Part shown: positions 28,779-53,834 of the stretch, one piece after another
How positions within the stretch are numbered: position 1 is the first letter of the stretch
Layout: the number at the start of each line of letters is the position of its first letter
Source: Balneolaceae bacterium
GTDB lineage: Bacteria > Bacteroidota > Rhodothermia > Balneolales > Balneolaceae
Length of the DNA stretch: 64,000 nucleotides
Assembly (NCBI GenBank): GCA_020832285.1
Contig: JAFIFB010000075.1
Span: 1 to 64,000 of the forward strand
Direction: 5' to 3'
Notes under the pieces: generated by a model
Told to the model about the DNA's origin: nothing
Seen by the model: only the letters and a program-made list of their open reading frames with translations
Database searches by the model: none
Translations under genes and position numbers: made by a program

Positions 28779-29359
28779 AAGAGGAAGATTTACATACCAA
28801 ATTTACCCATATCCATAAGGTGATTTTAAAGCCCTCTTTTTTAAAGATGGATGCACTTGGTGGCGAAATTCCATTTTGGATCTCTACATACGATCCAACA
28901 CAAGAAATTGCTGTTCAAGGGGAGATCGAAAACCTTGCTAAGAAACTTCAGAATGAGGGGATAAAACCACACCTGATCAACCTGTTTACACTATCTGTTG
29001 AGATCATTGAAGAACATATCGGCTTGGAAAAGATCTTTAAAGTTGAAAAACGAAAGAGCAAGGAGAGATTTAAAAAAGCACTTGAGTCTTCCATCAACAT
29101 CCATGAGCGGCTTATTCCTGCTATTCAACAACAAGTTCAGGAACACCAGCCACAGTTATTAATGATTCATGGAGTGGGTTCTGCATTCCCTTTTATTCGA
29201 TCTCACAATGTGCTTAACAACCTGCAAAGTGCAGTCAAAGATATTCCCACGATCATGTTTTTCCCCGGTGTGTATACCGGACGGTCCCTCGAACTATTTG
29301 GGCTGCTTAAAGATGACAACTATTACAGAGCGTTTAACATCGACAATTTCAAAATATAG
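28775..29359 (+). CDS. brxB: BREX protein BrxB (DUF1788)
   Basis: About 194 aa from ATG 28775, which overlaps the brxA stop in an ATGA arrangement; the frame is open further up, but this start fits the family. Motifs are HTKFTHIHKVILKPSFLKM, LLMIHGVGSAFPFIRSH and IMFFPGVYTGRSLELFG, a Rossmann-like core typical of BrxB. Required for BREX defence in studied systems; exact role unclear. Next gene follows after 2 bp. Confidence 0.93.
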   Translation: MKEEDLHTKFTHIHKVILKPSFLKMDALGGEIPFWISTYDPTQEIAVQGEIENLAKKLQNEGIKPHLINLFTLSVEIIEEHIGLEKIFKVEKRKSKERFKKALESSINIHERLIPAIQQQVQEHQPQLLMIHGVGSAFPFIRSHNVLNNLQSAVKDIPTIMFFPGVYTGRSLELFGLLKDDNYYRAFNIDNFKI

Positions 29360-29361
29360 AT

Positions 29362-32300: not shown

Positions 32301-32865
32301 CTACAACCAAGCCAATTTCAGCTATATTGATGCAGACGAGAAGCATGTTATATCGCAAGTAAAAGAAGATCCTACCCCTTATCTCGGATCTGCTATGAAG
32401 GATGCCAAGGAAGCGATGGATACCATCGAACAACGGGTGAAGGGCGCAATCACTGAGGAACGAGAAAAGACTGTCAAACGGATCGAGAATAAAATTTCCG
32501 ATCTGACTCAAAAAAAGGAGTATTCTGAACTATCGGGGTCGGAAAAAGATCAGGTTTTGGCACCCTTAAACAGTTTGAAATCACAGGCGAAGGAAGAACG
32601 ATTTATCGGAAACCTGAAAACGATTCAAACGGGGCTTGGAGATGTTTATACGAATCAGCTGAACCTAATGATTGAACTTTCGATCCCTGAAGATGGTGGA
32701 GACGATGCTGAACCTAAGCGACAGTTCATTAAACAATCTAATATCAAACACTTTTTCAAAAAGAAAGAGCTGGAAGATGAAGAGGATGTGGATGAATATC
32801 TGAAATCCCTCCGGGAGTCGATGATCATACAGATTCAGAAAAACAGGAGCATCATCCTCGATTAA
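29362..32865 (+). CDS. brxC: BREX ATPase BrxC
   Basis: 1167 aa, the usual BrxC length. Walker A GFFGSGKSH at residues 64-72 within the diagnostic WISGFFGSGKSHLLK. A conserved NFYVDEVGQYI Walker B-like block and SWIIVTSQEDL follow. The C-terminal third is largely helical with coiled-coil potential (about 880-1120). P-loop ATPase of the STAND/ORC-like class, thought to assemble on DNA with other BREX components. No disruption seen. The AbiE pair follows after 30 bp. Confidence 0.96.
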   Translation: MKLTNYFKKDFNRNIETVIKADDMSHILQEVEEYVITSEISQKVADFFEQYNNYEGANGVWISGFFGSGKSHLLKILSYVLEDRTINDTHLGELFAEKVTDDAKLKGDIKAATRIPSESILFNIDQQAQITSKTDANAILQVFYKVLYEHQGFYGFQPHIAEFERWLSKEGKYESFKEGFESEFGKPWTIARNDYVDPMVEDAIAEVCGSLFGSDPEKYLDILDKFEDKTKFSIEDFAHKVQEFINSKSSGFRLNFYVDEVGQYIAENTKLMLNLQTIAESLATKCKGQSWIIVTSQEDLGSLVGDDRATQSDDFSKIQGRFKIRIPLTSANVDEVIEKRLLAKNEQGEKLLTSLYKSEKDNMATLLSFSDVGIQFKESYKDADEFIAKYPFVTYQFDLFQQCIKALSRHNAFQGKHASVGERSMLGVFQEVLKGLKKFNERSLVSFDQLFEGLRSTMRTEVQNSIILAERNLSNNPLAIRILKALFLVKYYDSFKSTTRNVSVLLLNDLDVNPHTHQKEIEEALNLLEQQNYVQRHGDLYEFLTDVEKDIQEEIKSTDIDSTQVTDLFNTLLFDGIVRDTRIQFEENKQYYDFTKKVDGVQFGREKELTIELVTPNFDRFDDQNYYQGLSMGNQTHMLMKLASHDRIVRDARLYIQTEKYIKQTQSTSNKDEVKRILFEQGQQNQERKREILAALNEMLADATVFLNGTEHKVSSTGDGKTKVIYAFQDLIRLAYSKLKLLGDTTYDENRLQSIMKGKQDDLFGGDDESMTVPENEVLNFIQRRKKQNDRTTLSDLKEHFSKKPYGWGEMAIWCITAMLFKRGKIESKQDSDILEDPEFLNALMNNRAHANTLIYPQIEFDQGQIRTLKNVHKDLFNESNPHNEAKEAAGLFKEKLNEEVETIGAFIAQQSSYPFMKQLQPLLERLKSLRQMDYARLITTIETVEDEILDLKEDVLDPIKQFMNGGQRNIYDRLRQFEGYNQANFSYIDADEKHVISQVKEDPTPYLGSAMKDAKEAMDTIEQRVKGAITEEREKTVKRIENKISDLTQKKEYSELSGSEKDQVLAPLNSLKSQAKEERFIGNLKTIQTGLGDVYTNQLNLMIELSIPEDGGDDAEPKRQFIKQSNIKHFFKKKELEDEEDVDEYLKSLRESMIIQIQKNRSIILD

Positions 32866-32894
32866 ATATTGATATTTCAAATTAACGGCACATT

Positions 32895-33695
32895 ATGGTA
32901 AATTGTGCCAATAATTTGAATGTAAAACCGACTATTTTCGCAGACTATAACCTACATATCGAAGAGCTGAAAGATCATTTCAGTGGAAAAGACCACTTTC
33001 AGACAAATGATGTCGTTGAGTTTTACCGCTCAATTGAGACAGACTTAAACAGATCGACTATAAATTGGCGGGTCTACAAATTGGTAGATCGGGGTATTTT
33101 AAAGCGGCTTGGGAGAGGGGTGTTTAAGTTGGGAGAAAGTGAGCAATTTACACCTGTTTTAGCCAAACCTCTCAAAACACTTTATAAAAAAGTGAAAAAC
33201 GAATTCCCATACATTGAATTTTGTGTCTGGAACACCTCTTTTCTGAATAATCTGATGCTCCATCAGCCTTTCAACTTTTTTACGCTTATTGAAACGGAAA
33301 GAGAAGTAACAGAATCTGTTTTTCAATATGTAAATGAATTGAAATCAAATGTATTTCTAAGTCCAAACAAAGAGATTCTTCAAAATTATGTACAGGGTAG
33401 TCAGGATGCCATTGTCGTGAAGCCACTGATTTCTGAAAGCCCTTTGGAAGAGATTGATGGCGTAATAACAGCAACTCTGGAGAAAATATTAGTAGACCTG
33501 TTCTGTGATACAGACCTGTATGCAACGTACCAGGGAGTTGAACGGAGACGTATTTTTCAGGAGGCATTTTCAACATATACCATCAATGAAAAAATGATGT
33601 TAAGATATGCTGATCGCAGAAAACGAAAAGAAGAGCTTGTAGAATATTTGAACCAACTTGAGCTGTTGACTTTAAATCAAATAAGCAATGATTGA
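32895..33695 (+). CDS. AbiEi-like type IV antitoxin (DUF6577-like)
   Basis: 266 aa. N-terminal winged helix about 10-75 (NDVVEFYRS...INWRVYKLVDRGILKRLGRGVFKL), the AbiEi DNA-binding style, then a nucleotidyltransferase-like antitoxin domain with PYIEFCVWNTSFLNNLM. It overlaps the AbiEii gene by 8 bp, the normal arrangement for this pair. The antitoxin usually represses its own promoter through inverted repeats; no obvious pair was found in the 30-bp gap after brxC. More AT-rich than brxC. Confidence 0.85.
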   Translation: MVNCANNLNVKPTIFADYNLHIEELKDHFSGKDHFQTNDVVEFYRSIETDLNRSTINWRVYKLVDRGILKRLGRGVFKLGESEQFTPVLAKPLKTLYKKVKNEFPYIEFCVWNTSFLNNLMLHQPFNFFTLIETEREVTESVFQYVNELKSNVFLSPNKEILQNYVQGSQDAIVVKPLISESPLEEIDGVITATLEKILVDLFCDTDLYATYQGVERRRIFQEAFSTYTINEKMMLRYADRRKRKEELVEYLNQLELLTLNQISND

Positions 33696-34752
33696 CCAAA
33701 ATCAACTTACTACTGAATGGGTACGGCAGGTATCAAAGAAACACAAGGCTGATCCATTGCTCGTTGAAAAGGTTATCCGCGCATTAATGCTGCTGGAAGG
33801 GCTGGTTAAGCATGAGCTCGATTTTATATTTAAAGGCGGTACATCCTTAATGCTCCATTTTGATTCTACAAAACGTCTTTCTATTGACATCGACATCATT
33901 CTCCCAGACAAAGAAGTAGAATTGGACGACGTTCTTGATTCAGTAGTAAAAGGTCAGGGGTTTAGCCGATGGGAGCTTCAGGAGCGCAATGCAAGGTCAA
34001 GTATCGAGAAAGCACACTATAAGCTTCACTATGAGCCTCTACACCGAACTGGCAAAGAGGAAGAGTATGTACTCCTCGATATTTTGTTTGAACAGGATCA
34101 TTATACAACTCTTACTAAGCTGCCTATTCAATCCCATTTTGTGCCTCAAAAGGGTGAGCCATTAATGGCTGAGGTTCCATCCATCGAAGATCTGCTTGGA
34201 GATAAACTTACTGCCTTTGCACCCAATACCACAGGAATCCCCTATTTCAAAGGAGATGACAGTATGAGCATGGAAATCATTAAACAGCTCTATGATATTG
34301 GAAACCTTTTTGACGCAACTGAAGATCTACAAACCGTAAAAGGGACGTTTCAAAGATTTGCAGATGCAGAGTTAGTCTATCGCGAAACGGATGGATTAAC
34401 CGCTGGAGACGTACTTGAAGACATCTATCAAACCTCATTGAGTATTGCCACTCGTGGGAAAGACGGAAAAGCTAATTTTGATGAATTGCAATCGGGCATA
34501 AAACGTCTTCAAAGCTTCATTTTTTCTGAGCGATACCACCTCGAAAAAGCAATTTCTCATGCTACAAAAGCGGCTTACGTAGCTTCATTGATTAAACAGG
34601 ATACTGATCGTTTTGAACGATTCGACCCTGCAGAAAAAATGGGTGATTGGCAAATTGAACACCCTATGAATACTCGGGTTAACAAACTGAAGAAGTCAAA
34701 CCCAGAAGCTTTTTTCTACTGGTATAAGATATTTGAACTAACTAAAGAATAA
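33688..34752 (+). CDS. AbiEii/AbiGii nucleotidyltransferase toxin
   Basis: 354 aa. FKGGTSLML (GGTS at residues 50-53) followed by KRLSIDIDIIL, the GG[ST]-x(n)-DxD core of the AbiEii/MenT-like nucleotidyltransferases, then EDLLGDKLTAFAP, another family block. MenT relatives inactivate tRNAs by adding nucleotides to the 3' end. It sits with its antitoxin between brxC and pglX, in frame with operon direction, so it is likely transcribed with BREX. Only 6 bp separate it from pglX ATG. Confidence 0.9.
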   Translation: MIDQNQLTTEWVRQVSKKHKADPLLVEKVIRALMLLEGLVKHELDFIFKGGTSLMLHFDSTKRLSIDIDIILPDKEVELDDVLDSVVKGQGFSRWELQERNARSSIEKAHYKLHYEPLHRTGKEEEYVLLDILFEQDHYTTLTKLPIQSHFVPQKGEPLMAEVPSIEDLLGDKLTAFAPNTTGIPYFKGDDSMSMEIIKQLYDIGNLFDATEDLQTVKGTFQRFADAELVYRETDGLTAGDVLEDIYQTSLSIATRGKDGKANFDELQSGIKRLQSFIFSERYHLEKAISHATKAAYVASLIKQDTDRFERFDPAEKMGDWQIEHPMNTRVNKLKKSNPEAFFYWYKIFELTKE

Positions 34753-34758
34753 TTGTCC

Positions 34759-37700
34759 ATGAACACCAACCAACTCAAAAAATTCGCACAAGAAACCCGA
34801 CGTAAACTTCTGAAGCAGGTGAACGGAAAATTGGAGCATGTGCTTAGTTCAGATAACGGAGCGCTGAGGGATAAAGCCCATGTTTTAAAGGATCTGAAAA
34901 AGGATCTTGACCGATTGGGACGTGAAACGTTGGTAGACAAGGTTGCATATACGTGGTTTAACCGTTTTGTGGCTTTGAGATATATGGATGTGCGGGGATT
35001 TCAGCCATTAGAGATGTCGATTCTCTCCCCGCAAGAGGGACAGGTAAGCCCTCAGATTTTGCAGGAGGCGATGGCGGGGCATATACCCGATGAGCTGAAA
35101 GTTGACCGACAGCAGATTATGGATATCCTCGACGGGAGAACAGCAAGCAGCAATCCCGAAAATGAGGCGTACCGACAGCTACTGGTGGCAAGCTGCAACC
35201 ATCTGCACTCTATTTTTCCCTTTCTTTTTGAGTCGATTGATGACTACACCGAATTGTTGCTGCCCGATGATCTGACAAGTGAGTTCTCTATTATCCATGA
35301 TGTGATTAAGGGGATGACCGAAGAGGATTGCGAACAGGTTGAGATCCTCGGATGGCTGTATCAATTCTACATTTCGGAGAAAAATTATGAGTTGATTAGC
35401 TCTAAAAAGAAATACAAAAAAGAGGATCTTGCCCCAGCTTCCCAGTTATTTACTCCAAAGTGGATTGTACAGTACATGGTAGATAATACGTTGGGACAGA
35501 TTTGGTCTGAAATTAACCCAAACACATCTATTCTGAGTGAATTGGAGTTCTATATCAAACCTGCTTATGAAGAACAGTTGGTCGACAGAGAAAGAAAAAG
35601 TGTTGAGGAGGTCACTTTTTTTGAACCATGTGTTGGTTCAGGACATATTCTCTCATATGCTTTTGATGTTTTCTATAAAATGTATGAAGAGATGGGATAT
35701 AACCCGAGTGATATTCCTACACTGATTCTTACTAAAAATCTCTTTGGAGTGGATATCGATCAGCGTGCAACACAAATTGCGGGATTTGTCTTGATGATGA
35801 AAGCTCGTGAAAAGTCTCGTCGATTCTTTAGAAAACAGGTTCAACCCAATGTTTATTACTATGAAGACTTTAAGGACGACGAGAAATTTAAAAACGCTAC
35901 TACTTTAGGATCATTGGTACAAGTTGCTTCTGAAGAGTATAAAGCTATTTCTGTTGATGGGGACTCAATTTTTGGACATCAGAAGCAAAAACTTAAAGAT
36001 CTATACAAACTTCTTGGACAGAGTTATGATGTGGTCGTTACAAATCCTCCATACATTGGCTCAAAACGAATGGAGCCAAGCCTGAAAAAGTATGTGAATG
36101 AGCATTACGAAGATACGAAATCTGATTTGTTTGCTACGTTTGTGATTCGCTGTCTTGAAATGAGTAATGAAAGAGGGATGACTGGGTATATGACTCCATT
36201 TGTATGGATGTTTATCTCAAGCTATCAAAATTTAAGAGAAGAAGTCATTGATAACCACTTCATTAATAACCTGATTCAACTTGAATACTCAGGCTTTGAT
36301 GGAGCTACAGTTCCTGTTTGTACTTTCACACTGCGTAATGAATACTTAGAGCATTGTGAGGGAAGTTATATTCGATTAAGTGATTTTAAAGGTGCTAAAG
36401 TTCAGGCTCCAAAAACACTCGAAGCCATTAAAAACACTGATTTTGGTTGGTTCTACACTGCCGATCAAAAAGATTTCGAAAAAATTCCTGGGAGTCCGAT
36501 TGGATATTGGGTGAGTAATTACGAATTCGAACTTTATACTAAGGATAATCTAATAAAAAACTATTCCCATCCAGCGAAGGGAATAGACACTGGTGAAAAC
36601 GCTTTTTTCTTAAGGTATTGGTATGAAATACCAAACATTCTTTTTGACAAAAATGATGCAAAAGGAGATTGGGTTCCATACAATAAGGGTGGGGCTTTCA
36701 AAAGATGGTATGGAAATCGTGAATATGCGTTAAGATGGCATGGAGATGGGAAAAAATTAAAATCTCGATTGAGTTGGAAAAAAAGAAAACCGACTCTAAG
36801 AAATAAAAAGCATTGGTTTAAAGAAGGTTTTACTTGGACAACAATTTCATCTGGCGGTTTTTCAGCAAGATACTGTGAGAAAGGGGCTCTTTTTGATAAT
36901 GGCGGTTGCACATTATTTACTGATGAGAACTTAATGATCTTTGGGGCTCTACTTAATTCAAAAATCAGTGATAGATATCTTGAATTTTTGTCACCCACAT
37001 TAAATTTTCAACCCGGTGATATAGGCTCTATCGCATTACATCCTGATTATTTAAAGGCTAATCAAAAGATGGATGTAATAAAGATATGTATAGAAGTTGC
37101 AAAAAATGATTGGAACTCAAGAGAAACCTCATGGGACTTCGAAAAAAACGAACTGATCCGCTTCAACAAAGAAGGCGGCATTGAAACCATTGAAGAAGCC
37201 ACAGATCTCTACAAACAATACTGGACGAATAAGTTCATTCAGCTCCATGAAAATGAAGAAGAGCTGAACCGTCAATTTATTGACATCTACGGTCTGCAGG
37301 ATGAGCTTACCCCCGTTGTGCCGCTAAATGAGATTACAATTTTGCAGGAGGAGTTGGATTCCAAGAAGTTGAAAAAGATTGACAAACAATGGAGAGGAAA
37401 TTCCAATGGTACTAAGCCTGCACTGCCGTTCAAGGATAAGGAAGTGTTTGCGCAGTTTGTTAGTTATGCTGTGGGGTGTATGTTTGGTCGGTACTCTCTG
37501 GATAAAGAGGGGCTGATCCTTGCCAATCAGGGAGAAACACTGGAGGATTACCTTGAGAAAGTTGAGCTTAGTAAACAGGACGTTTCATTTTTACCCGACA
37601 AAGACAACATCATTCCAGTTCTCGATGATGAGTGGTTTGAAGATGATATCGTCACCCGTTTCCACCAGTTTCTGAAGGCAAGCTTCGGGGAAGAACACTT

Positions 37701-38226
37701 TCAGAAAAATATCTCCTTCGTAGAAGAGCAGCTTGGCAACAACCTTCGGAAATATTTCACCAAAGACTTCTATAAAGACCACTACAAGCGATATAACAAA
37801 CGCCCGATCTACTGGAAGTTCTCCTCACCCAAAGGGTACTTCAATGTACTGATCTACATGCACCGCTACACGCCTGATACCCTCAACAATATTCTGAATA
37901 ACTACCTGCGGGAGTTCATCAACAAACTGAGCACCCGCAAAGAGCAGATGCAGCATTTGGAGAATACAGGTTCTGCCTCCGAAAAAGCACAAGCAAGCAA
38001 GGAGATCGACACCATCAACAAGATGCTTGCCGATTGCCAACACTATCAACGCGAGATCCTGTATCCCTTGGCTTCAGAACGCATCGAGATGGACTTGGAT
38101 GATGGGGTGCTGGTTAACTACAATCTGTTCGGAGATGCTGTTGAGGTAATTAATGGGGTGAATGATAAAAAGAAGAAAAAGAAGGTCAAGGAGTTTGATT
38201 GGATTGACTCTTCCAAAATAAGGTGA
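34759..38226 (+). CDS. pglX: BREX-1 adenine-specific DNA methyltransferase PglX
   Basis: About 1155 aa from ATG 34759 (TTG 34753 also possible). SAM-binding FEPCVGSGHILSYAFDVF and catalytic VTNPPYIGSKRM (NPPY near residue 429) identify a gamma-class N6-adenine methyltransferase. Target recognition lies in the section encoded by about 36430-37130, which is visibly more AT-rich than both flanks, consistent with exchange of the specificity domain. The C-terminal part is helical with YNKRPIYWKFSSPKGYFN. In BREX it marks host DNA at a non-palindromic site and is needed for defence. Intact. Confidence 0.95.
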   Translation: MNTNQLKKFAQETRRKLLKQVNGKLEHVLSSDNGALRDKAHVLKDLKKDLDRLGRETLVDKVAYTWFNRFVALRYMDVRGFQPLEMSILSPQEGQVSPQILQEAMAGHIPDELKVDRQQIMDILDGRTASSNPENEAYRQLLVASCNHLHSIFPFLFESIDDYTELLLPDDLTSEFSIIHDVIKGMTEEDCEQVEILGWLYQFYISEKNYELISSKKKYKKEDLAPASQLFTPKWIVQYMVDNTLGQIWSEINPNTSILSELEFYIKPAYEEQLVDRERKSVEEVTFFEPCVGSGHILSYAFDVFYKMYEEMGYNPSDIPTLILTKNLFGVDIDQRATQIAGFVLMMKAREKSRRFFRKQVQPNVYYYEDFKDDEKFKNATTLGSLVQVASEEYKAISVDGDSIFGHQKQKLKDLYKLLGQSYDVVVTNPPYIGSKRMEPSLKKYVNEHYEDTKSDLFATFVIRCLEMSNERGMTGYMTPFVWMFISSYQNLREEVIDNHFINNLIQLEYSGFDGATVPVCTFTLRNEYLEHCEGSYIRLSDFKGAKVQAPKTLEAIKNTDFGWFYTADQKDFEKIPGSPIGYWVSNYEFELYTKDNLIKNYSHPAKGIDTGENAFFLRYWYEIPNILFDKNDAKGDWVPYNKGGAFKRWYGNREYALRWHGDGKKLKSRLSWKKRKPTLRNKKHWFKEGFTWTTISSGGFSARYCEKGALFDNGGCTLFTDENLMIFGALLNSKISDRYLEFLSPTLNFQPGDIGSIALHPDYLKANQKMDVIKICIEVAKNDWNSRETSWDFEKNELIRFNKEGGIETIEEATDLYKQYWTNKFIQLHENEEELNRQFIDIYGLQDELTPVVPLNEITILQEELDSKKLKKIDKQWRGNSNGTKPALPFKDKEVFAQFVSYAVGCMFGRYSLDKEGLILANQGETLEDYLEKVELSKQDVSFLPDKDNIIPVLDDEWFEDDIVTRFHQFLKASFGEEHFQKNISFVEEQLGNNLRKYFTKDFYKDHYKRYNKRPIYWKFSSPKGYFNVLIYMHRYTPDTLNNILNNYLREFINKLSTRKEQMQHLENTGSASEKAQASKEIDTINKMLADCQHYQREILYPLASERIEMDLDDGVLVNYNLFGDAVEVINGVNDKKKKKKVKEFDWIDSSKIR

Positions 38227-38233
38227 GGAAGCT

Positions 38234-39928
38234 ATGAATCGTGAACAATTAGAACAGATGGTAAAAGCAGGAGAATCTAATCATATTGAATACAAAGAGT
38301 GTGGTAACCGTGTACCCGATTCATTCTATGAAACAGTTGTTAGTTTCTCCAACACAGATGGCGGCACCATTTTACTTGGGGTAGACGATGATAAAAACAT
38401 TAAAGGAGTTAAAGCTGGTAAAGAAGAGAAGATCAAGACAGATGTAATAACTGCGCTTAATTCGCCTGACTGTATTAGCCCACCAATTTTTGTTGATCCT
38501 ATTATTCATAATATAGATGGAAATTCACTTATTTCGGTATATATCCCTTCAAGTTCTCAAGTCCATAAACATGGAGAAAATATATACGTTCGTGACCATG
38601 AAAGTGATATAGATATCACGAACAATCAAAAGCGTCTGAGTGAACTTTACAACAGAAAACGCACCCAATTTACTGAGTCGAATATCTATCCAAACCTTTC
38701 AATGGCTGATTTGGATGAAGCTCTCTTCGAAAAAGCCAGAAAGTTAATTAAGGCAAATAAAAGTGATCACCCATGGCTTTATCTTGAAAACGAAGAATTA
38801 CTTCGTGAATCCATTCTTTATCGGAAGGATTATCAAACAGGTAAGGAGGGATTAACCCTTGCATCCGCACTCATTTTTGGCAAAGATATTACAATCCAAA
38901 GCTTATTACCCGCATACAAAGTTGAAGCAATGGTGCGGATTGAAAATGTAGATCGATGGGATGATCGTTTAACTCTCCGCACCAATCTTATTGATACCTA
39001 TCAGCAACTAAAAGCATTTGTTTACAAACATCTTCCTGAAAAGTTTTACTTAGAGGGAGATCAAAGAGTTGATCTTAGAGATAAGGTATTTCGCGAAGTG
39101 ATTGGCAACGCCATTGTGCACCGTGAATACACCAGTGCTCTATCTACTGACTTAATTATTGGTAGAAATAAAGTATTAATAACAAATCCCAACAAAGCTC
39201 TTTTCCACGGTCCAATTGACCCTTTATCTTTCAATCCATATCCCAAAAACCCAAACATTCGTAAATTTTTCACTTCTTTTGGATGGACTGATGAAATTGG
39301 ATCGGGTATTAGAAATACTAATAAATGGTTACCAAGGTACATACCGAATTCAAAACCAGTTTTTATTGAAAATGATGTTTTCAAAACAGTAATACCACTA
39401 AAAGTAGAGGCATTAGGAAACTTTGCTGAATCATTTAGAAAATGGCTACAATTATCTGATGATTACGATGAGCACATATCGGAAGGGTTACAAAATATTC
39501 CACTTCCCACATCTTTGGCTGATGCATCATTTAAAGAAGTACTAACACATTTGGTACCAAGTTGGACCAAAGTTGGTACCAAGCTAAAGCGCCTTGATTG
39601 GGCTAATAACGAGATTTCAAGCAAAGATGAAGTTCAAAAGGTATCAAGCTGGTACCAGGATGGTACCAAGCTGTTACACAAAAAAACAGTTTACTTGATA
39701 CAGATTCTAACCCTTGCATCTAAAGCAATTTCATTAGATGACATGATGAATGCCATTGGATATAAAAACCGTGCTTCTTTTCGGAAAAATTATTTGGATG
39801 CTTTAGAAAGTGTTGAACTTGTAACCAAAACAATTCCAGACAAACCAAATTCACCAGATCAAAAATATGCAGTTACTGAGAAAGGGAAGCTGTTTTTAGC
39901 TGGTTACAATTTTGAGCTCAATGAATAA
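38234..39928 (+). CDS. AlbA_2 plus GHKL-type ATPase domain protein
   Basis: 564 aa. N-terminal AlbA_2/Schlafen-like domain (about 10-130): ESNHIEYKECGNRVPD, FSNTDGGTILLGVDDD, and VHKHGENIYVRD. Then a HATPase_c_4 region with VIGNAIVHREYTSA and WTDEIGSGIRNTNKW, which approaches GHKL N and G boxes. The C-terminus holds short tandem repeats around WTKVGTKL/WYQDGTKLL and a winged helix. GAGGAAG precedes ATG 38234, a good Shine-Dalgarno. More AT-rich than the core BREX genes. It ends 8 bp inside pglZ, so it is translated with it. Probably a regulator or accessory. Confidence 0.85.
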   Translation: MNREQLEQMVKAGESNHIEYKECGNRVPDSFYETVVSFSNTDGGTILLGVDDDKNIKGVKAGKEEKIKTDVITALNSPDCISPPIFVDPIIHNIDGNSLISVYIPSSSQVHKHGENIYVRDHESDIDITNNQKRLSELYNRKRTQFTESNIYPNLSMADLDEALFEKARKLIKANKSDHPWLYLENEELLRESILYRKDYQTGKEGLTLASALIFGKDITIQSLLPAYKVEAMVRIENVDRWDDRLTLRTNLIDTYQQLKAFVYKHLPEKFYLEGDQRVDLRDKVFREVIGNAIVHREYTSALSTDLIIGRNKVLITNPNKALFHGPIDPLSFNPYPKNPNIRKFFTSFGWTDEIGSGIRNTNKWLPRYIPNSKPVFIENDVFKTVIPLKVEALGNFAESFRKWLQLSDDYDEHISEGLQNIPLPTSLADASFKEVLTHLVPSWTKVGTKLKRLDWANNEISSKDEVQKVSSWYQDGTKLLHKKTVYLIQILTLASKAISLDDMMNAIGYKNRASFRKNYLDALESVELVTKTIPDKPNSPDQKYAVTEKGKLFLAGYNFELNE

Positions 39929-42422
39929 AATCCAACAATCCATAGAGATGCTACTTCAGAAACATCGCATCCTTTTATGGTACGATGCAGAACAATCGTT
40001 TGCGGAAGAGTTTGAATCGCTTGACTTAGATGAAGCCACAAAGCTTGAAGTAAATGGCAACGAATTCGAAACCAAGGTTCGGGTTCTTCACCAGGAGCCT
40101 GATCAAAAATTTCTTCTCTACCTCCCTAAAGAGAAGCCTGATGATGAAGAGAATTGGTTGCTGGATATTGAACTCGCACACCATGTGTATCATACCGATC
40201 AAGAGGCACTCTACCTGCAGGAGGTTGGGTTAGGGTATCATTATAAACAGTGGCTCAGCCAACATGTTGAGTTTTTTAAAAACAAGGAGCGGGTTGCTGC
40301 ATTTAAAGATATAGCACGCGAAGAAGATGGAGATCATCTGCTCTCTCTTAAATTGATTCAGGTAGTTTTTGGGGCAGAAACCCTGTCATTCGACCTCTTT
40401 TTAAGAAACTATGCATCTGCAAATGTTCACGATCAAGAGGATTCCATCAACCGGGAATTGGATCGGTTTCAGCTTACAGAGCTCTTTTGGGAGGAAGTAT
40501 CAAAACGGTACGGTTATACTCATGATGAACCGGTGATTTACGATTTTCTTCTCGAAGCTTTTCAGAAGAATTATACTCCATTGCGGTCGCAGTCTGTAGT
40601 TAACCGGGAAACAGGTGTGCTATTATCTTCATGGAAAGACACTCTTTCATTTCAGGAAGATTTTAAAACCATATCCAATCGAATACAGAAGGATCTCCAA
40701 ATAGAAGACACATTAAACAGTGCATCACTTGATGAAATTGTTGGTGATGACCTGTTTGAATTGATAGATCAGCGAGTTATTTCCGAGCTTATTCGTGGCA
40801 TTTTGGATGGCAGTATCGACCAGCAGCGGTTAGAATCCGTCATCAAAAAGCGTGAATCCCTCTACTGGTATGATCGATATGTGCAATTTTATGATGCCTT
40901 GCGGGTTGGTTTTAATCTGCTTGAGACCATACGGAATACAGAAAAAATTGAGATCCCAACATTTGAAGAAGGGGTAGAAAACTACACTCAAAAATGGTAT
41001 CAGGTAGATCAAAACTACAGGCTATTTATTCAATATTACCGGGAAACCAATCAGAATAATGTACTCAACCCTCTCTATGGAGAAGTAAACAAAGCCTACA
41101 GCAATAACTGGCTGCTAAAACTGAGTGATCAATGGCAGAAAACTCTTGATCGTCAAAATACATGGACAAAACATTACCGCACCCAAACCAATTTTTTCAA
41201 GTATCAAGTCAAGCCATTTTTAAGCAAAAAAACTCGTCTCTTTGTAATTGTATCTGATGCGCTTCGATATGAATGTGGAGTATCATTCCACCAACAGATG
41301 CTGAAAGAGAATCGCTTTGAAAGTGATCTCGAATATCAGATTACTCCTTTGCCTTCTTTTACTCAGTTAGGAATGGCTTCTCTTTTACCGCATAAAGAGC
41401 TTTCTTTTGGAAAAGGTGACGATATCTTAGCTGATGGCAAGAGTACAAAAGGACTTCACGCAAGAAGGAAAGTACTGCAGGAGAATACCGATGTAAATGC
41501 AACTGCAGTTCTTGCAGAGGAACTTATGAAAATGGCATCAAAAAGTGAGGAAGCCCGAGAGTTGGTTTCCGGTCACGATTTGATCTATATCTATCACAAT
41601 CGAATTGACAAGCTTGGGGATGATAAGAGTTCCGAAGAAAAAGTGATTGAAGGTGTTCGGGATGAGATTCAATTTTTAATCGATCTCATAAAAAAAGTGA
41701 CCAACATGGGAGGATACAATCTCATTGTTACGGCAGACCACGGGTTTATCTATCAAAATGACCCCATTGATGAGAGTGACTTTGCCGATGCGGATGTTAA
41801 TGGCGATATAATAAAATCTAACCGGCGCTTTGTGTTGGGGCACAATCTTACTCACAAAGATAATGTTATGCCATTTAGCTGTAACGATCTTGGAATAGGT
41901 GGAAACCTACAGGTATTAATTCCTAAAAGTATAAACCGGCTACGGGTTCAGGGTGCAGGTTCCCGATTTGTACATGGCGGTGCCACTTTGCAGGAATTGA
42001 TCACACCCATAATTAAAGTGAAGAAGAAACGAGAGGATACAGTAAAATTTGTAGATGTTGATGTACTGAATAAACGTAATAACAAAATCTCTACAAATAT
42101 CCAGCGAGTCAGTTTTTATCAGTTGGAGCCTGTTGGTGAGCAAATTCTGCCCCGAACATTAAAGATCCAGTTTAAATCGAAAGATGGAAATTCGCTTAGT
42201 GATGTATTTACGTACACGTTCGATTCCGACACTCAGAGCTCCAAAGACAGGGAAGTTATCCATCGATTTCAGCTTTCGAGCAAGGCAAGTAATTACCACA
42301 GTAATGAAGAGGTTTACCTTGTTCTCGAAGTACAGGTTGAGGGCAGCAACAAATGGAGAGAGTACAACAAATATCCGTATGAGATTAAAATTTCATTCAC
42401 CAACGATTTTGAAGATTTTTAG
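39921..42422 (+). CDS. pglZ: BREX phosphatase-domain protein PglZ
   Basis: About 833 aa from ATG 39921, inside the end of the previous gene. PglZ domain (alkaline phosphatase superfamily) at about 435-690 with LFVIVSDALRYECGVSF, TPLPSFTQLGMASLLP, and NLIVTADHGFIYQ, giving the Asp, Thr/Ser and Asp-His metal ligands. The N-terminal half is helical, as usual. A core BREX protein; homologues show metal-dependent nuclease or phosphodiesterase activity. brxL starts 3 bp later. Confidence 0.95.
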   Translation: MNKIQQSIEMLLQKHRILLWYDAEQSFAEEFESLDLDEATKLEVNGNEFETKVRVLHQEPDQKFLLYLPKEKPDDEENWLLDIELAHHVYHTDQEALYLQEVGLGYHYKQWLSQHVEFFKNKERVAAFKDIAREEDGDHLLSLKLIQVVFGAETLSFDLFLRNYASANVHDQEDSINRELDRFQLTELFWEEVSKRYGYTHDEPVIYDFLLEAFQKNYTPLRSQSVVNRETGVLLSSWKDTLSFQEDFKTISNRIQKDLQIEDTLNSASLDEIVGDDLFELIDQRVISELIRGILDGSIDQQRLESVIKKRESLYWYDRYVQFYDALRVGFNLLETIRNTEKIEIPTFEEGVENYTQKWYQVDQNYRLFIQYYRETNQNNVLNPLYGEVNKAYSNNWLLKLSDQWQKTLDRQNTWTKHYRTQTNFFKYQVKPFLSKKTRLFVIVSDALRYECGVSFHQQMLKENRFESDLEYQITPLPSFTQLGMASLLPHKELSFGKGDDILADGKSTKGLHARRKVLQENTDVNATAVLAEELMKMASKSEEARELVSGHDLIYIYHNRIDKLGDDKSSEEKVIEGVRDEIQFLIDLIKKVTNMGGYNLIVTADHGFIYQNDPIDESDFADADVNGDIIKSNRRFVLGHNLTHKDNVMPFSCNDLGIGGNLQVLIPKSINRLRVQGAGSRFVHGGATLQELITPIIKVKKKREDTVKFVDVDVLNKRNNKISTNIQRVSFYQLEPVGEQILPRTLKIQFKSKDGNSLSDVFTYTFDSDTQSSKDREVIHRFQLSSKASNYHSNEEVYLVLEVQVEGSNKWREYNKYPYEIKISFTNDFEDF

Positions 42423-42425
42423 GCT

Positions 42426-44471
42426 ATGAAAGAACTCAATGAAAAAATTAATGAGCACTTTGCAGGAAAGGTTGTTCGAAAAGATCTGACAAATCTGATA
42501 AAAGGAAATGCAAGCATTCCCACGTATGTCCTGGAATATCTGCTGGGTCAATATGCCGCTACGGATGATGAAGAGACTATAAAAGAAGGGGTTGAGACTG
42601 TAAAGAGTATCATCACCAAACACTTTGTACACCGGGATGAAGCTCAGGTTATCAAATCTACTGTTCGGGAGCGCGGATCACACAGAATCATCGATAAAGT
42701 AGCTGTAAAACTGAATGACAAAAAAGATATTTATGAAGCTTCTTTTGGTAATCTTGGACTGAATAAAGTTCCTATCCATGATTCTTTCGTGAAAAAGCAC
42801 CCTAAGTTATTGTCAGGCGGGGTATGGTGTATTATTACGTTGGGTTACCAGCCATCAGAGGAACGTGATTCTATCCCCTGGACGATAGAAAAGCTTAAAC
42901 CTATTCAAATCTCAGGGATTGATCTTGAAGATTACAAACAGCTTCGAAAAGAATTTACAAAAGATGAATGGGTGAATTTATTAATGCAATCCATTGGATT
43001 GAACCCTGAAGAGTTTTCAGATCGGTCAAAGCTACTCCAGCTAACACGCCTGGTTCCATTTGCAGAAAAGAATTATAACCTGATTGAGTTGGGTCCAAAG
43101 GGAACCGGAAAGTCTCACCTCTATTCTGAACTGTCTCCCCATGGAATTCTGATTTCAGGAGGTGAAGTATCTAAAGCCAAACTTTTTGTAAATAACAGTA
43201 CAGGAGAAATAGGGCTCGTAGGTTATTGGGATGTGGTTGCCTATGATGAGTTTGCAGGAAAAACGAAACGCACAGATCGTGGTTTGGTTGATATCCTGAA
43301 GAACTATATGGCGAATAAAAACTTCTCGCGAGGTACACAGGTCTATCAGGCAGAAGCTTCTATGGTATATGTGGGAAATACAGACCATTCGGTTCCCTAT
43401 ATGCTCAAACACACAGATCTGTTTGATGCCCTGCCAAAAGATTATTACGATTCTGCATTTTTAGATCGGATTCACTGTTATCTACCAGGATGGGAAGTGC
43501 AAAAACTAAGAAACGAGATGTTTACTGATGATTATGGATTCATCGTTGACTATCTCGCAGAGGTGTTGAAAGAGCTTCGTAAAGAAGACTACATGAAATC
43601 GTATCAGAAGTATTTCGACCTTTCGGAAAGTATAACAACGAGAGACAAAACATCCATTGAAAAGACGTTTTCTGGTTTGGTGAAGGTAATTTATCCCCAT
43701 GGAGAGTTTAGCGCTTCAGAAGCCCGTCAGCTAATTGACTTTGCCATAGAGGGACGGAAACGAGTGAAAAATCAGCTACGGAAAATGGACGAAACCTTTA
43801 ATGATGAGGTTGTTCACTTTCAATTTAACACAAAGGATGGAAAATCTCACAAAGTAGAAACACTGGAGGTGATTGAGTATGGAGATCCCAAATTGGATAT
43901 TCCTGCTGGCGGAGAAGACAGCGGGAATGGTAAATTAATCGCTAATAAAGATGTCACGTCAGATTCAATTAATGAGGAACCCAAGAAAAAGGAACTGAAA
44001 GAAGGGCAGAAAATCATACGGGAGAACCAGACAGGAATCAGTTATAAAAAGCTGTTTGGTGATTATTTAGAAGATGCTACTGAAATTGAGGTGATTGATC
44101 CATATATCCGTCTTCCCCATCAGATGAAAAATTTTATGGAGTTGGCTCGACTTATTGCAGAGCAAAAACAACCTGATGAAGAAGTAAGCATTCACCTGAA
44201 GACCAACAATAACGAAGAGTACATCTCAAATTCTAAGGAAGCATTTTCAGACATGATGGATTCTTTAGAGCCGATTGGCATCAAGTTTACCTATGAGTTT
44301 GATGAAGATCTCCATGATCGATCTATCAATCTAAATAATGGGTGGAAAATCCTATTAGGAAGAGGACTCGACATTTTCCAAAAAACCAATGGATGGTTCG
44401 ATATTGCCGATCACTATCAGGAAGTACGCAAATGTAAGGGTTGTGAGGTTACTTTTTTGAAGGAGGTTTAA
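42426..44471 (+). CDS. brxL: BREX Lon-like AAA+ protein BrxL
   Basis: 681 aa, the normal BrxL size. Walker A GPKGTGKSHLY near residue 223, then SPHGILISGGEVSKAKLFVN and VVAYDEFAG (Walker B). A C-terminal Lon-protease-like part follows after a linker near 500-545. BrxL assembles on DNA as a hexameric ring in characterised systems, and its presence, not PglW or BrxHI, marks this as type 1 BREX. The next gene starts 3 bp downstream. Confidence 0.95.
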   Translation: MKELNEKINEHFAGKVVRKDLTNLIKGNASIPTYVLEYLLGQYAATDDEETIKEGVETVKSIITKHFVHRDEAQVIKSTVRERGSHRIIDKVAVKLNDKKDIYEASFGNLGLNKVPIHDSFVKKHPKLLSGGVWCIITLGYQPSEERDSIPWTIEKLKPIQISGIDLEDYKQLRKEFTKDEWVNLLMQSIGLNPEEFSDRSKLLQLTRLVPFAEKNYNLIELGPKGTGKSHLYSELSPHGILISGGEVSKAKLFVNNSTGEIGLVGYWDVVAYDEFAGKTKRTDRGLVDILKNYMANKNFSRGTQVYQAEASMVYVGNTDHSVPYMLKHTDLFDALPKDYYDSAFLDRIHCYLPGWEVQKLRNEMFTDDYGFIVDYLAEVLKELRKEDYMKSYQKYFDLSESITTRDKTSIEKTFSGLVKVIYPHGEFSASEARQLIDFAIEGRKRVKNQLRKMDETFNDEVVHFQFNTKDGKSHKVETLEVIEYGDPKLDIPAGGEDSGNGKLIANKDVTSDSINEEPKKKELKEGQKIIRENQTGISYKKLFGDYLEDATEIEVIDPYIRLPHQMKNFMELARLIAEQKQPDEEVSIHLKTNNNEEYISNSKEAFSDMMDSLEPIGIKFTYEFDEDLHDRSINLNNGWKILLGRGLDIFQKTNGWFDIADHYQEVRKCKGCEVTFLKEV

Positions 44472-44474
44472 AAA

Positions 44475-45245
44475 ATGCTAATAGAAAATCCCATACCAGA
44501 TGACTGGAAAGCTCTTCAAGAGAGTATTAAGAATATTTTTCAAGAAATTGGTTACAGTGCAGAAACCGAAAAAAATATACTAACTCCACGAGGAAATGTA
44601 AAAGTGGATGTTTATGCAATTGATAAAAGCAATGTTGATGAAATCAAATATGTGATAGAGTGCAAAAATTGGAATAGCAGAATTCCACAGTCAATTGTTC
44701 ACAGTTTTATGACACTAATGAACGAAACGGGTTGTAATAAAGGAATAATTGTTTCAAAGAAAGGACTTCAAAAAGGTGCACGTGAATATATCAAGAATAC
44801 AAACATAATTGGTCTTTCATTTACTGAATTTCAGCTACATTACTATGATATGTGGTATAAAATGAAATTTTCATCAAAATTAGATGAAGTATCTGATTCC
44901 TTAATTCAATATGTAGAACCATTCAACTCCCGAAGGACTAAAGAAACCGAAAAATTATCGCTAAAAAAGCAGACAAGTTTGATAAGACAGGTTAATAAAT
45001 ACGAACTATTTGGAATAATAGTAAATAATTTAGTTGTAAGAAGATTATATGTAACTGAAAAAAAAAGGTATAGTCCTGATGATGCTCTTTCTCTAAAAAT
45101 GAATTTAGAGAATAGCTTGCAAGGAAGTTACAGGTTTAAATCGGAATTTTTGAGAGACTTTCTCGATGAGTTAACTGAATTAATTTATCGAATTACTACA
45201 GAATTTGACTCAATATTTGCAAGAAATATTTTTCCTGAAAAATAA
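44475..45245 (+). CDS. Mrr-type restriction endonuclease-like protein
   Basis: 256 aa. N-terminal Mrr_cat PD-(D/E)XK fold: D45 in VKVDVYA, E62 and K64 in YVIECKNW, then a Gln-containing helix and GIIVSKKGLQKGA. The C-terminal 130 residues are unrecognised. Begins 3 bp after brxL, so it is the last gene of the operon. Mrr-type enzymes often cut modified DNA; here it could complement BREX against phages with modified genomes, like BrxU in other BREX loci, but the folds differ. AT-rich compared with brxL. Confidence 0.85.
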   Translation: MLIENPIPDDWKALQESIKNIFQEIGYSAETEKNILTPRGNVKVDVYAIDKSNVDEIKYVIECKNWNSRIPQSIVHSFMTLMNETGCNKGIIVSKKGLQKGAREYIKNTNIIGLSFTEFQLHYYDMWYKMKFSSKLDEVSDSLIQYVEPFNSRRTKETEKLSLKKQTSLIRQVNKYELFGIIVNNLVVRRLYVTEKKRYSPDDALSLKMNLENSLQGSYRFKSEFLRDFLDELTELIYRITTEFDSIFARNIFPEK

Positions 45246-45268: not shown

Positions 45269-46225
45269 TCATATATCCTCTTGATTACTTTTAATTTGTC
45301 CTATATCAAGATCCTTTAACTCGGAAGTGGAATAATAAGGAACTTTTCCCGATGGTACGATTAAACTTGCCGTTTTTAAGTGTCTATCTTGATCATCAAA
45401 AAAGAAATGTGCGCCAAATGCTTTAAGTACTTTATCTTTTGATAATCCACCTAAGAAATACGCTTCGTCCACATAGACTCCCCATTTTCTTAATGTTTTA
45501 ATTACTCTCATATGAGATGGTGCGTTTCTTGCTGTTACAATAGCAAGTCTCAATGGAGATAGTTCAATTGTGGAAGGGAAATGATCTTGAATTTTAGAAA
45601 GCTTAATTAATAAATTAGCAAAAGGTCCCTCTTTTAATGGTTCATCTTCATGTTCAGATTCAAATTGATGAAATGCATCCATGCCTTTTTTCTTGTATCT
45701 CAATTCAGATTCATCAGAAAAAAGAACTGCATCAGCATCAAATGCAATTTTGACACGATTTGATTCTGGATCAAACTTCTTAGGTGGTTCAAATATTTTT
45801 GCAGCAGCACAGGCTTGAGAGTCAATTACAGTCTGTACATCTTTAGAGTCCATTGATAAAAATAAATCGACATTAAAAGCGTCAATATAAGGTGCCAATG
45901 GTTCACCCCCAGACAAAGCAATTCTTGTGATATCCAATTCATACTTTCTAATAGAATTAAGCATTCGCACACCCGTTTCAGGACTATTTCGAGACATAAC
46001 AATTACTTCGACAATTCTTTTATTTGCTTGATTATTTAGATCCAGTAAGCTCTTAATTAAGGCAAAAGCAGTTCCTTTACCTAAAGCCTCTTCCTCATTT
46101 TTTTGTTGATATAATCTGAATTTTTCTATGCCTTCATCATCATATATCCTATTTTCTTCTTCGAGATCAAATAAAGCTCTTGATGATACTCCAATTACAA
46201 GCATCTCAGAAAAGTTTTGCGACAT
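45269..46225 (-). CDS. Cytosolic 5'-nucleotidase type I-like protein
   Basis: 318 aa. Carries the blocks of the NT5 cN-I family (PF06189): LVIGVSSRALFDLEEE, ALSGGEPLAPYIDAF, KIAFDADAVLFSDESE (DxDxV phosphatase nucleophile), IVTARNAP and FFDDQDRH. Members dephosphorylate nucleoside monophosphates. Bacterial homologues are scattered and often on mobile elements. It converges with the Mrr gene (23 bp gap) and diverges from the dTMP-kinase-like gene, with which it may form a nucleotide-handling pair. Confidence 0.85.
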   Translation of the reverse strand: MSQNFSEMLVIGVSSRALFDLEEENRIYDDEGIEKFRLYQQKNEEEALGKGTAFALIKSLLDLNNQANKRIVEVIVMSRNSPETGVRMLNSIRKYELDITRIALSGGEPLAPYIDAFNVDLFLSMDSKDVQTVIDSQACAAAKIFEPPKKFDPESNRVKIAFDADAVLFSDESELRYKKKGMDAFHQFESEHEDEPLKEGPFANLLIKLSKIQDHFPSTIELSPLRLAIVTARNAPSHMRVIKTLRKWGVYVDEAYFLGGLSKDKVLKAFGAHFFFDDQDRHLKTASLIVPSGKVPYYSTSELKDLDIGQIKSNQEDI

Positions 46226-46558
46226 TGAATTTATATCTGATTTTGTTGGAATAGTTTAGTTATTTTTTAATCACCTGCGCAATAGATACGATTAATATAG
46301 ATATAACTTTAGAATATATGTTAAACTCTAACCATGCAGTAAATATCTAACTACATATAATAATGTCATCTAAGGTCAACACTGACAACTTATTTTTGAG
46401 AACTGTAAACATAGGGAATCAATAAATACAAATATTTATATCCTGCTTTAAGCAAATCTGTTATTAGAACATCATTTGCAGATAATTTACATATAATTAA
46501 TTATTGGCTAATCCCTATTTTAGATAGATATTTTAGAATATTAAAAAAATATAATTCT
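46226..46558. other. Divergent promoter region of the nucleotidase/kinase pair
   Basis: 333 bp of very AT-rich DNA between two divergent starts. It must hold both promoters, but no clear operator, hairpin or RNA gene was recognised. Confidence 0.5.
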
Positions 46559-47314
46559 GTGGTATTGGAAAAAGGTATTTTAGTAGCATTTGAAGGAATA
46601 GACGGTGCTGGAAAGACTACTCAAGTCCACTTATTAGGTAAAGCTCTTAAAGATGCAGGTGAAAATGTCATCGTATCCAAGGAACCTACCGATGGTGCTT
46701 GGGGACAAAAAATTAGAAAATCTGCTTCAACTGGAAGGCTACCTTTAGAAGATGAACTTGAGGCTTTTATTCAAGATCGAAAGGAGCACATCGAGAATTT
46801 GATTGCCCCAAATCTTGCTGAAGGAAGAATTGTGATACTTGACAGATACTTTTATTCAACTGTTTCATACCAAGGTTCAAGGGGTGCTGATTTTGAAGAG
46901 GTTGAAAAAAACATGAAAGAATTTGCGCCAGTTCCAGACATGGTATTTCTTCTTGATATTGACCCAGAGACCTCTTTGAAGAGAATTGCAGAACTTAGAA
47001 AGGAAATTCCCAATCAGTTTGAAAAGCTTGAAACGCTTACTTCAGTTCGTAAAGTGTTTAATGCAATTGAAAAAACTGATGATGAAATTTGGAAATTAGA
47101 CGGTAAGAAATCAATTGAACTCATACATAATACTATAAAAAATCTACTCCTCGACAATGTATTGCACAAAAAAAGATGTGCTAAAGATTATCAATGTCAG
47201 GATTTCATAAATTGCTCTTTCCGATTGTCTGAAGAATGTGACTGGTATAAGTTGAATAAAAAATTGAGACCAAATAGAGATAGTTTTACGGAAACAGCCT
47301 TTATTCAAGATTAA
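46559..47314 (+). CDS. dTMP-kinase-like protein with C-terminal Cys-rich extension
   Basis: 251 aa. P-loop FEGIDGAGKTT (about 10-20), SKEPTDGAWGQ, ILDRYFYSTVSYQG (DR motif) and DIDPETSLKR are standard thymidylate kinase blocks. A tail of about 45 residues has six Cys (KKRCAKDYQCQDFINC and SEECDW), which ordinary Tmk lacks, possibly a metal site. Starts at GTG 46559. A housekeeping tmk would be expected elsewhere, so this is probably a specialised island copy. Confidence 0.8.
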   Translation: MVLEKGILVAFEGIDGAGKTTQVHLLGKALKDAGENVIVSKEPTDGAWGQKIRKSASTGRLPLEDELEAFIQDRKEHIENLIAPNLAEGRIVILDRYFYSTVSYQGSRGADFEEVEKNMKEFAPVPDMVFLLDIDPETSLKRIAELRKEIPNQFEKLETLTSVRKVFNAIEKTDDEIWKLDGKKSIELIHNTIKNLLLDNVLHKKRCAKDYQCQDFINCSFRLSEECDWYKLNKKLRPNRDSFTETAFIQD

Positions 47315-47646: not shown

Positions 47647-48198
47647 TCAAACATCTATACCCAGTCTCATAGCTTGAAGGGATAGATTTTTTCCGCATAT
47701 TTCCAGATCTAACAAATCACGGTAATACTTCACAACCTCATAATACTTTTCTCTGCCATCAATCTGATTCACAATGGATATACCCATTTCAGAAAAAGCC
47801 TTCAGAAATACATTTGATATAACTGGGTGTTGGATCTTCAAATAAATGTCTAAATCAGTATTAAATAGTAATGCTCTGAAGGTAATCGTTTTAAGGTACT
47901 GATTTAAAATTCTTGCTGAATAGGAATAGGGGTTGTCTATTGACACCACCAAATTGCTTCTATATAAATGATAAATATCTTTGTGAAATGGGATTAAGAT
48001 CTCATCTATATACTGATCGTACTCAACTCTGGTAACTATATCGACCAATGGGTTTACATTGACTCGATTCAGTATTTCAATAAATTCATCTCTTGCCCCC
48101 TTCTTAAATATACCCATGTTAACAGGAGTAATTACCTCTTGAATAGCGCGTTGAAATAATTCGGTGTACAGTTGATCTTCGAAATTTGATATATCCAT
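47647..48198 (-). CDS. Hypothetical protein, 183 aa, last gene of the island
   Basis: Soluble, mostly helical, with no signal peptide or membrane segment. Features such as NPYSYSARILNQYLKTITFRA and a C-terminal YYRDLLDLEICGKNLS do not match a family known to me. It points into the island, about 190 bp inside the right arm-type site. Codon use matches the AT-rich accessory zone. Confidence 0.55.
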   Translation of the reverse strand: MDISNFEDQLYTELFQRAIQEVITPVNMGIFKKGARDEFIEILNRVNVNPLVDIVTRVEYDQYIDEILIPFHKDIYHLYRSNLVVSIDNPYSYSARILNQYLKTITFRALLFNTDLDIYLKIQHPVISNVFLKAFSEMGISIVNQIDGREKYYEVVKYYRDLLDLEICGKNLSLQAMRLGIDV

Positions 48199-48518: not shown

Positions 48519-48569
48519 TCAACCTTCTGATCCGAAGTCAGACGCTCTATCCAGTTGAGCTACGGGCGC
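48519..48569. repeat. attR: right copy of the 51-bp attachment repeat (tRNA-Arg 5' half fragment)
   Basis: Identical to 1-51. Left of it (48480-48518) is AT-rich and not tRNA-like, so this is only the 5' half of tRNA-Arg(TCG), cut off by the insertion. To its right lies the presumed original upstream region of that tRNA. Confidence 0.9.
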
Positions 48570-48599: not shown

Positions 48600-48622
48600 G
48601 TACACCCGACAGGATTCGAACC
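48600..48622 (-). pseudogene. tRNA-Arg 3' end fragment (T-arm and acceptor strand)
   Basis: Twenty-three bases are identical to the start of the intact tRNA-Arg copy at 48721. The similarity stops abruptly at a 17-bp palindromic element (gcggagc act gctccgc, 48623-48639). No D- or anticodon arm follows, so it is not a working gene. A leftover of an old tandem tRNA or of an earlier insertion at this site. Confidence 0.7.
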
Positions 48623-48721
48623 GCGGAGCACTGCTCCGCAATGTCAAAGCCTTCGATAGCTAATACAAGATAAATCTAACAAAAGTAAAATTCACTAATT
48701 AGATATCGGGAGTTGTACTTG

Positions 48722-48795
48722 TACACCCGACAGGATTCGAACCTGTAACCGCCTGATTCGTAGTCAGGTACTCTATCCAGTTGAGCTACGGGTGC
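48722..48795 (-). tRNA. tRNA-Arg(ACG)
   Basis: 74 nt on the minus strand: acceptor GCACCCG with CGGGTGT, D-arm AGCTCAACTGGATAGAGT, anticodon arm CCTGA-CTACGAA-TCAGG with anticodon ACG, T-arm ACAGG-TTCGAAT-CCTGT, discriminator A. CCA is not encoded. Intact, so it is the nearest functional Arg tRNA right of the island. Confidence 0.95.
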
Positions 48796-52286: not shown

Positions 52287-53834
52287 TCAGCCCCGGGGTT
52301 TCATCGTGGCTACCGGCAATATCATCTCTTCCATTGAAGCACCTCCGTGCTGGAATGTATCGCGGTAACGGTTTTGAAATTTATTATAATTATTGGGATA
52401 CACAAAGAAGTAATCTTCTTTAGCGATGATGTAACTGTTTGCAGGAGGGTCTACCGGAAGCTGATAATTGTGAGGCTTGTCAATATAAATCGCTGCGCTC
52501 TCCTGAGCTTTCAAATTTCGGCCATATTTGTACCTGAGATTTGTAGCGGCGTCTCTGTCTCCAAATACTTTAGTATCCCGCATCGACCGAACCGACCCAT
52601 GATCAGTAGAAACCACTACGGTTACATCTTCATTTGCAAGCTCTTTGAACATCCTGAAAAGAGATGAGTGCTGAAACCACGTTTCAGTAAGAGAACGAAA
52701 AGCTGATACATCCGGGGCGAGCTGTTTCAAAACCTCGGAATCGGAACGGCTGTGAACCAGCGTATCAACAAAATTATAGATAATAGTTGTGAAGGCTGAC
52801 TGTGTATAGTTCGAAATTTTATCTGCAATTCTGTTCCCATCTTCAGGCTGAATAATTTTCTCATATTTCACCTGTTCCGGCAGCTGGTTGCGGTGCAGAT
52901 ACTTTTTCAGTAATTCCTCTTCATGGCGGTTCAGGGATGTTTCATCTTGTCCCATCTCCCACAAATCGGGATAACGCCGCTGAATTTCGAGCGGAAAAAG
53001 CCCTGAATAAATAGAATTCCTCGAGAATGGAGTAGCCGTTGGTAAAATGGAATAGTAGAAATCGGTATCGATCACATAATAATCATTCAGCATACTCTCA
53101 AAGAGCAGCCACTGATCATATCTCATACAATCGATCAAAAAGAAAACAACCGACTCCTTATTTTTCAAATGAGGAAAAACCTTTCGTTTTAAGAGATCCG
53201 GGCTGAGCGTAGGATGCTCATTTTCTTTACGCTGCAGCCAGCTTCTGTATTCCAGTTTAATGAAACGGCCAAATGCCAGGTTAGCCTGCTGAAACTGATC
53301 CTGTAAGACCTGCTGTAGAGCATCATCACCCGTTTCCAGGTTCAGATCCCAGTGAGTAAGTGTTTTATAAATACTGATCCACTCTTCCCAGCTTGTTTGT
53401 TCATTAAATTTGGCAGAAAGTTCATTGAAATTTTTCAGGTACGACTGAGCTGCCTTTTCGTTCTGAATGCGCCGCTTGTCCAGGATTCTCTTGATGGTAA
53501 GTATAATCTGGTTTGGATTGACCGGCTTGATGAGATAATCGGAAATTTTGTTTCCGATGGCATCCTCCATAATCGATTCTTCCTCGCTTTTTGTAATCAT
53601 CACAACGGGAAGTGAGGGACGAACACTCTGGATCTGCTCAAGCGTAGCCAGGCCGTCCATGCCCGGCATCTGTTCATCCAGAAAAATAATGTCATATGTA
53701 TTTTTCCTGATCAGAGAAACAGCGTCCTCGCCATTGGTCACAGGTGTAACTTCAAATCCTTTCCCCTCAAGGAAAATAATGTGTGATTTCAGCTGATCAA
53801 TTTCATCATCAGCCCAAAGTATTTTATTCGACAT
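52287..53834 (-). CDS. porX: PorX-type response regulator with PglZ domain
   Basis: 515 aa. Receiver domain 1-120 with ILWADDE acidic pocket, phospho-acceptor Asp in [11 protein letters not shown], and VMITKSEE. A helical linker leads to a PglZ (alkaline phosphatase-like) domain: [25 protein letters not shown], and [12 protein letters not shown]. PorX controls type IX secretion genes together with PorY and an ECF sigma factor (SigP) in Porphyromonas, and its PglZ domain is a nucleotide phosphodiesterase. Not part of the BREX locus despite the shared domain. Confidence 0.92.

Follow-up and report, generated by a model that had tools for sequence, protein, structure and literature searches.

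The divergent genes for a cytosolic 5'-nucleotidase of the cN-I type and a phage-type thymidylate kinase (Tmk) located downstream of a complete BREX operon in this Balneolaceae genome probably form no conserved unit and are independent cargo of one mobile island. Within the window, that is, the whole 64,000-nucleotide stretch of DNA that was analysed, the nucleotidase gene (318 amino acids, HAD fold) occupies positions 45269-46225 on the reverse strand and the kinase gene (251 amino acids) positions 46559-47314 on the forward strand, head to head and separated by an intergenic gap of 333 bp. Both open reading frames are present exactly where an earlier note on this DNA had placed them, each matching the family named there; the suggestion made there that they constitute a nucleotide-based anti-phage module did not hold up, as recurrent linkage of the two families is absent.

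For the linkage analysis, named genomes supplied 80 cN-I loci with flanks of up to 10 kb; to these were added eight annotated plasmid loci, further loci from Bacteroidota genomes and the Tmk loci of viral contigs, and three Tmk and two cN-I sequences served as queries against all gathered loci. Besides the window, no Tmk was detected near cN-I in approximately 100 distinct cN-I loci, 65 of which have flanks of 5 kb or more in both directions, and no cN-I was detected near Tmk in 101 viral-contig Tmk loci; nor do the annotated plasmid cN-I loci have a tmk neighbour. All records that contain both genes are of the window itself, and the candidate two-gene nucleotide defence module was rejected for lack of recurrent linkage (0 co-occurrences outside the window). 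The nucleotidase, by itself, does recur in defence settings.

Genomic setting of the two genes

We read positions 1-48569 of the window as an integrative element of 48.5 kb located at tRNA-Arg, a reading that is based on 51-bp direct repeats, an integrase and an intact tRNA gene in a relative. The left attachment-type repeat (1-51), which corresponds to the 5' part of tRNA-Arg(TCG), is matched by a perfect copy (100% identity) at 48519-48569 that adjoins tRNA-Arg(ACG) at 48721-48795; a tyrosine integrase of the island is encoded on the forward strand at 228-1385 (PF00589, E 2e-14; PF13356, E 5.5e-15); and tRNA-Arg(TCG) is intact in the same-genus relative G016 (L149:11146-11220). Since the contig starts with the left repeat, we infer the left junction. 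Past the right repeat, and before the intact tRNA-Arg(ACG), there is a broken second tRNA-Arg-like fragment (48601-48640).

The cargo of the island includes TIR, metallo-beta-lactamase, REase and BREX genes, with cN-I and Tmk at the distal end of the element. The BREX operon (28143-44471, forward strand) consists of brxA, brxB, brxC, pglX, pglZ and brxL along with genes for a DUF6577 protein and an AbiEii-like nucleotidyltransferase (32895-34752), placed between brxC and pglX, and for a Schlafen (SLFN)/AlbA_2 protein with a Fic-like C-terminal domain (38234-39928), flanked by pglX and pglZ; outside the operon, positions 52287-53834 encode a fusion of a response-regulator receiver with a PglZ domain. 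A gene for an Mrr-like restriction endonuclease (44475-45245, forward strand; PF04471, E 8.2e-14) follows brxL at a distance of 4 bp and is a neighbour of cN-I and Tmk, not a shown member of a common unit. The AT content of the cN-I and Tmk genes is higher than that of BREX and of the chromosomal gene at 60518. In the 333-bp gap, the number of promoter-like sites does not exceed the chance expectation and no RNA family was found. Beyond the kinase gene, positions 47647-48198 encode a 183-amino acid protein with a weak resemblance to Csx1/CARF in PADLOC (E 2e-4) and without a family in Pfam, NCBIfam or PHROG.

The nucleotidase and the neighbourhoods of its relatives

The nucleotidase matches, over its full length, both PF06189 (E 2.8e-122, 407.7 bits, cut-off 28.2) and the PADLOC candidate PDC-S08 (E 3.3e-128, 425 bits), and the HAD catalytic motifs, i.e. 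the nucleophile Asp, the Ser/Thr and the acidic pair, are intact (DADAV at 163, TARN at 231, FFDD at 275). Judged by its sequence, it is a complete cN-I enzyme, which would hydrolyse (d)NMPs to nucleosides. The similarity to PDC-S08 and PF06189 encompasses the full-length match, the catalytic motifs and the defence-island setting, with no structural difference. PDC-S08 is a 'guilt-by-embedding' candidate; in the one study found to mention it, its occurrence was divided equally among phage-resistant and phage-susceptible strains of Pseudomonas (PMC10855318). As it is a defence candidate only, membership is no proof of defence. We found no literature joining cN-I with BREX or restriction-modification (R-M).

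cN-I is rare in the phylum, being present in 13 of 394 Bacteroidota genomes. In rumen Bacteroidaceae, 41 loci carry it in a conserved, ordinary chromosomal neighbourhood; outside this group it is found in scattered lineages, several of which have it within restriction operons. The cN-I gene overlaps that for a type III Mod by 4 bp at three loci (L061, L063, L067) and is found 1 bp from a type III methyltransferase (L151), 3 bp from HsdM (L116), 3 bp from GmrSD (L066), and 12 bp (L152) or 39 bp (L083) from Eco57I-type (type IIG) enzymes. A gene with methyltransferase motifs is located within 40 bp of cN-I at 7 of about 57 scattered loci; operonic R-M linkage is a feature of a minority of cN-I loci. 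Plasmid-borne copies occur near Dsr1 and type I R-M, near Hhe, or near type I R-M and Fic. Among 30 BrxL loci in a sample of the phylum, two have an adjacent cN-I, those of the window's own genome (G000) and of G016, where cN-I lies 72 bp past BrxL; the two nucleotidases come from the same genus and are clearly divergent in sequence. None of these 30 loci has a Tmk beside BrxL. Next to the BREX-linked cN-I of G016 there is accordingly no Tmk gene; the only Tmk in that genome is the housekeeping one.

The earlier note had also considered that both genes might be phage-derived genes for precursor pools. For the nucleotidase, a phage origin is not supported: cN-I is present in only 3 of 50,697 phage records, and a pattern scan of viral contigs yielded no relative. 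The kinase is the part of that proposal that stands.

The phage-type kinase and its cysteine tail

The kinase matches PF02223 (E 4.1e-45, 154.2 bits, cut-off 27) and the NCBIfam dTMP_kinase family TIGR00041 (E 3.1e-47, 160.8 bits, cut-off 83.25), and is composed of a core (residues ~4-195) and a C-terminal tail with four cysteines (C4 tail, ~200-237). Catalytic motifs are kept (P-loop GIDGAGKT; DRY at 95), and an AlphaFold2 model with a mean pLDDT of 88.9 has as its best PDB match 4s35 (TMt 0.91), the top matches all being Tmk. Family membership and motifs together suggest that the protein is a dTMP kinase. With the housekeeping-type Tmk of Aquifex (aq_969, PDB 4s35) it shares the fold, the P-loop and the DR motif, whereas it has EPTDG in place of the standard EPGGT, IPNQFE where the DR[FI]E lid is expected (N-Q-F-E as opposed to D-R-I-E), and the additional C4 tail. 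The first two differences are clade-wide, with EPTDG and NxFE in the phage relatives compared to EPGGT and DRIE in housekeeping enzymes. The possibility that the window kinase is the only tmk of the genome, to which the earlier note had drawn attention, is dispelled by a separate housekeeping gene (G000:C107:47157-47759), the product of which is 34% identical to the window Tmk.

In a quick tree of 94 rows, with thin sampling beyond Bacteroidota chromosomes, the window Tmk belongs to a clade of 23 rows with an SH-aLRT support of 100, the other members of which are all from viral contigs; 30 Bacteroidota housekeeping Tmks fall outside this clade. The closest relatives are 44-57% identical, the top one (57%) being encoded on L161, and the contigs of the nearest relatives bear integrases, tail or tape-measure genes, or a single-strand-binding protein; relatives in plasmid records are only 27-43% identical. 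The core also matches the phage thymidylate kinases of phrog_761 (E 9.7e-36), in line with the grouping with Tmks from phage contigs, but the window protein differs from that family in having the C4 tail beyond the matched part of the profile and in being encoded in a chromosomal defence island. The tree suggests that the window Tmk is of phage origin, and it is from there that we infer the direction of transfer.

These data bear on the view that cN-I and Tmk are ordinary metabolic genes, carried as chance cargo and with no part in phage conflict. The conserved chromosomal setting of cN-I in rumen Bacteroidaceae and the kept catalytic motifs of the kinase are compatible with such a view, which nevertheless appears rather unlikely given that cN-I is rare elsewhere (the 13 genomes mentioned above) and recurs within R-M operons, and that the kinase is phage-like and redundant with the housekeeping copy.

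The tail of the kinase, encoded at 47156-47269 on the forward strand, contains Cys207, Cys213, Cys219 and Cys227 and is conserved in phage Tmks. The earlier note was correct in that such a tail is present and has no counterpart in the housekeeping Tmk of the genome; the number of cysteines is four and not six. Six phage-contig relatives have the tail in common (L130/L157, L158, L159, L160, L161, L162). In the five tailed Tmks that could be fully aligned, the residues Arg206, Lys209, Cys213, Cys219, Cys227, Trp229 and Leu236 do not vary, and four of the five also have Cys207; since the overall identity of these proteins is only 45-54%, the tail is not a chance feature. Matches to Pfam, NCBIfam and PHROGs stop before the tail, which is not covered by any of these libraries, and the window is its only real match in 394 Bacteroidota genomes; weak matches on L127 and L128 were discarded because of stops inside them and the lack of a Tmk by tblastn. 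The confidence of the model in this part is moderate (block means of AlphaFold2 pLDDT, 59-85). Going by the cysteine pattern, the tail probably binds a metal, an Fe-S cluster or a partner protein, with metal or Fe-S only a guess. Two of the contigs that encode tailed kinases, L158 and L161, also encode, near the kinase, similar TerB-like proteins with a BRCT-like end (L158, 8766-9650; L161, 6261-7169).

In the prophage contigs L138 and L142, relatives of the window Mrr-like nuclease (36-48% identity) are encoded directly upstream of Tmks from the same clade as the window Tmk. With this neighbourhood in two prophages, joint travel of Tmk and Mrr, not of Tmk and cN-I, is possible, such that the Mrr-like nuclease and the kinase would have been acquired jointly from the cargo slot of a prophage, with later insertion of cN-I between them; another Mrr relative, encoded just past the tail-fibre genes of the phage-like plasmid L275, is consistent with that route. 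Nevertheless, the slot upstream of Tmk varies, being occupied by an SRAP/YedK-like gene in other prophages (L134, L160), the Tmks of L138 and L142 are without the tail, and the window Mrr gene begins only 4 bp after brxL, all of which makes this history quite improbable.

Possible roles and relation to known systems

A two-gene anti-phage module, an effector-immunity pair in which cN-I drains dNMPs and the thymidine pool is protected or redirected by the kinase, is in our judgement highly improbable, for although the genes are head to head around a single 333-bp intergenic region in a defence island and cN-I is itself a guilt-by-embedding candidate (PMC10855318), a second example of the pair is missing from the ~100 cN-I and 101 viral Tmk loci, the BREX-linked cN-I of G016 does without an adjacent Tmk in a genome that has only the housekeeping one, and promoter-like sites in the gap are not beyond chance.

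We favour the explanation that the two genes are independent cargo, both carried at the distal end of a single integrative defence element of 48.5 kb. The nucleotidase would destroy the dNMPs freed by DNA cutting, so that an infecting phage could not recycle them, a role that is suggested by the repeated occurrence of its relatives within R-M operons or after BrxL. The kinase would be a Tmk taken from a temperate phage, i.e. a precursor-supply enzyme that converts dTMP or a related phage dNMP, with ATP, to the diphosphate, with its C4 tail as a probable binding site for a metal, an Fe-S cluster or a partner protein. The two enzymes would accordingly act on monophosphates in opposite directions. 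Tentatively, cN-I may be a dedicated accessory of restriction defence that removes the dNMPs released by cleavage, keeping them from reuse by the phage, and that is translated with restriction genes of type I, IIG or III or placed after BrxL, and the C4 tail of phage Tmks an undescribed element for the binding of a metal or a partner; we regard this combined proposal as possible and not as the expected outcome.

If the independent-cargo reading is right, the island brought the two genes together by coincidence, a caution against taking neighbours in defence islands as systems. The defence candidate PDC-S08 shares operons with restriction genes in several lineages, and the phage thymidylate kinases with a conserved four-cysteine tail are a subfamily undescribed in the protein libraries searched.

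Nucleotide-depletion defences such as dGTPase and dCTP deaminase act on dNTPs. In the proposed role, cN-I would likewise remove DNA precursors, but its substrates would be monophosphates, as opposed to the dNTPs of the known enzymes.
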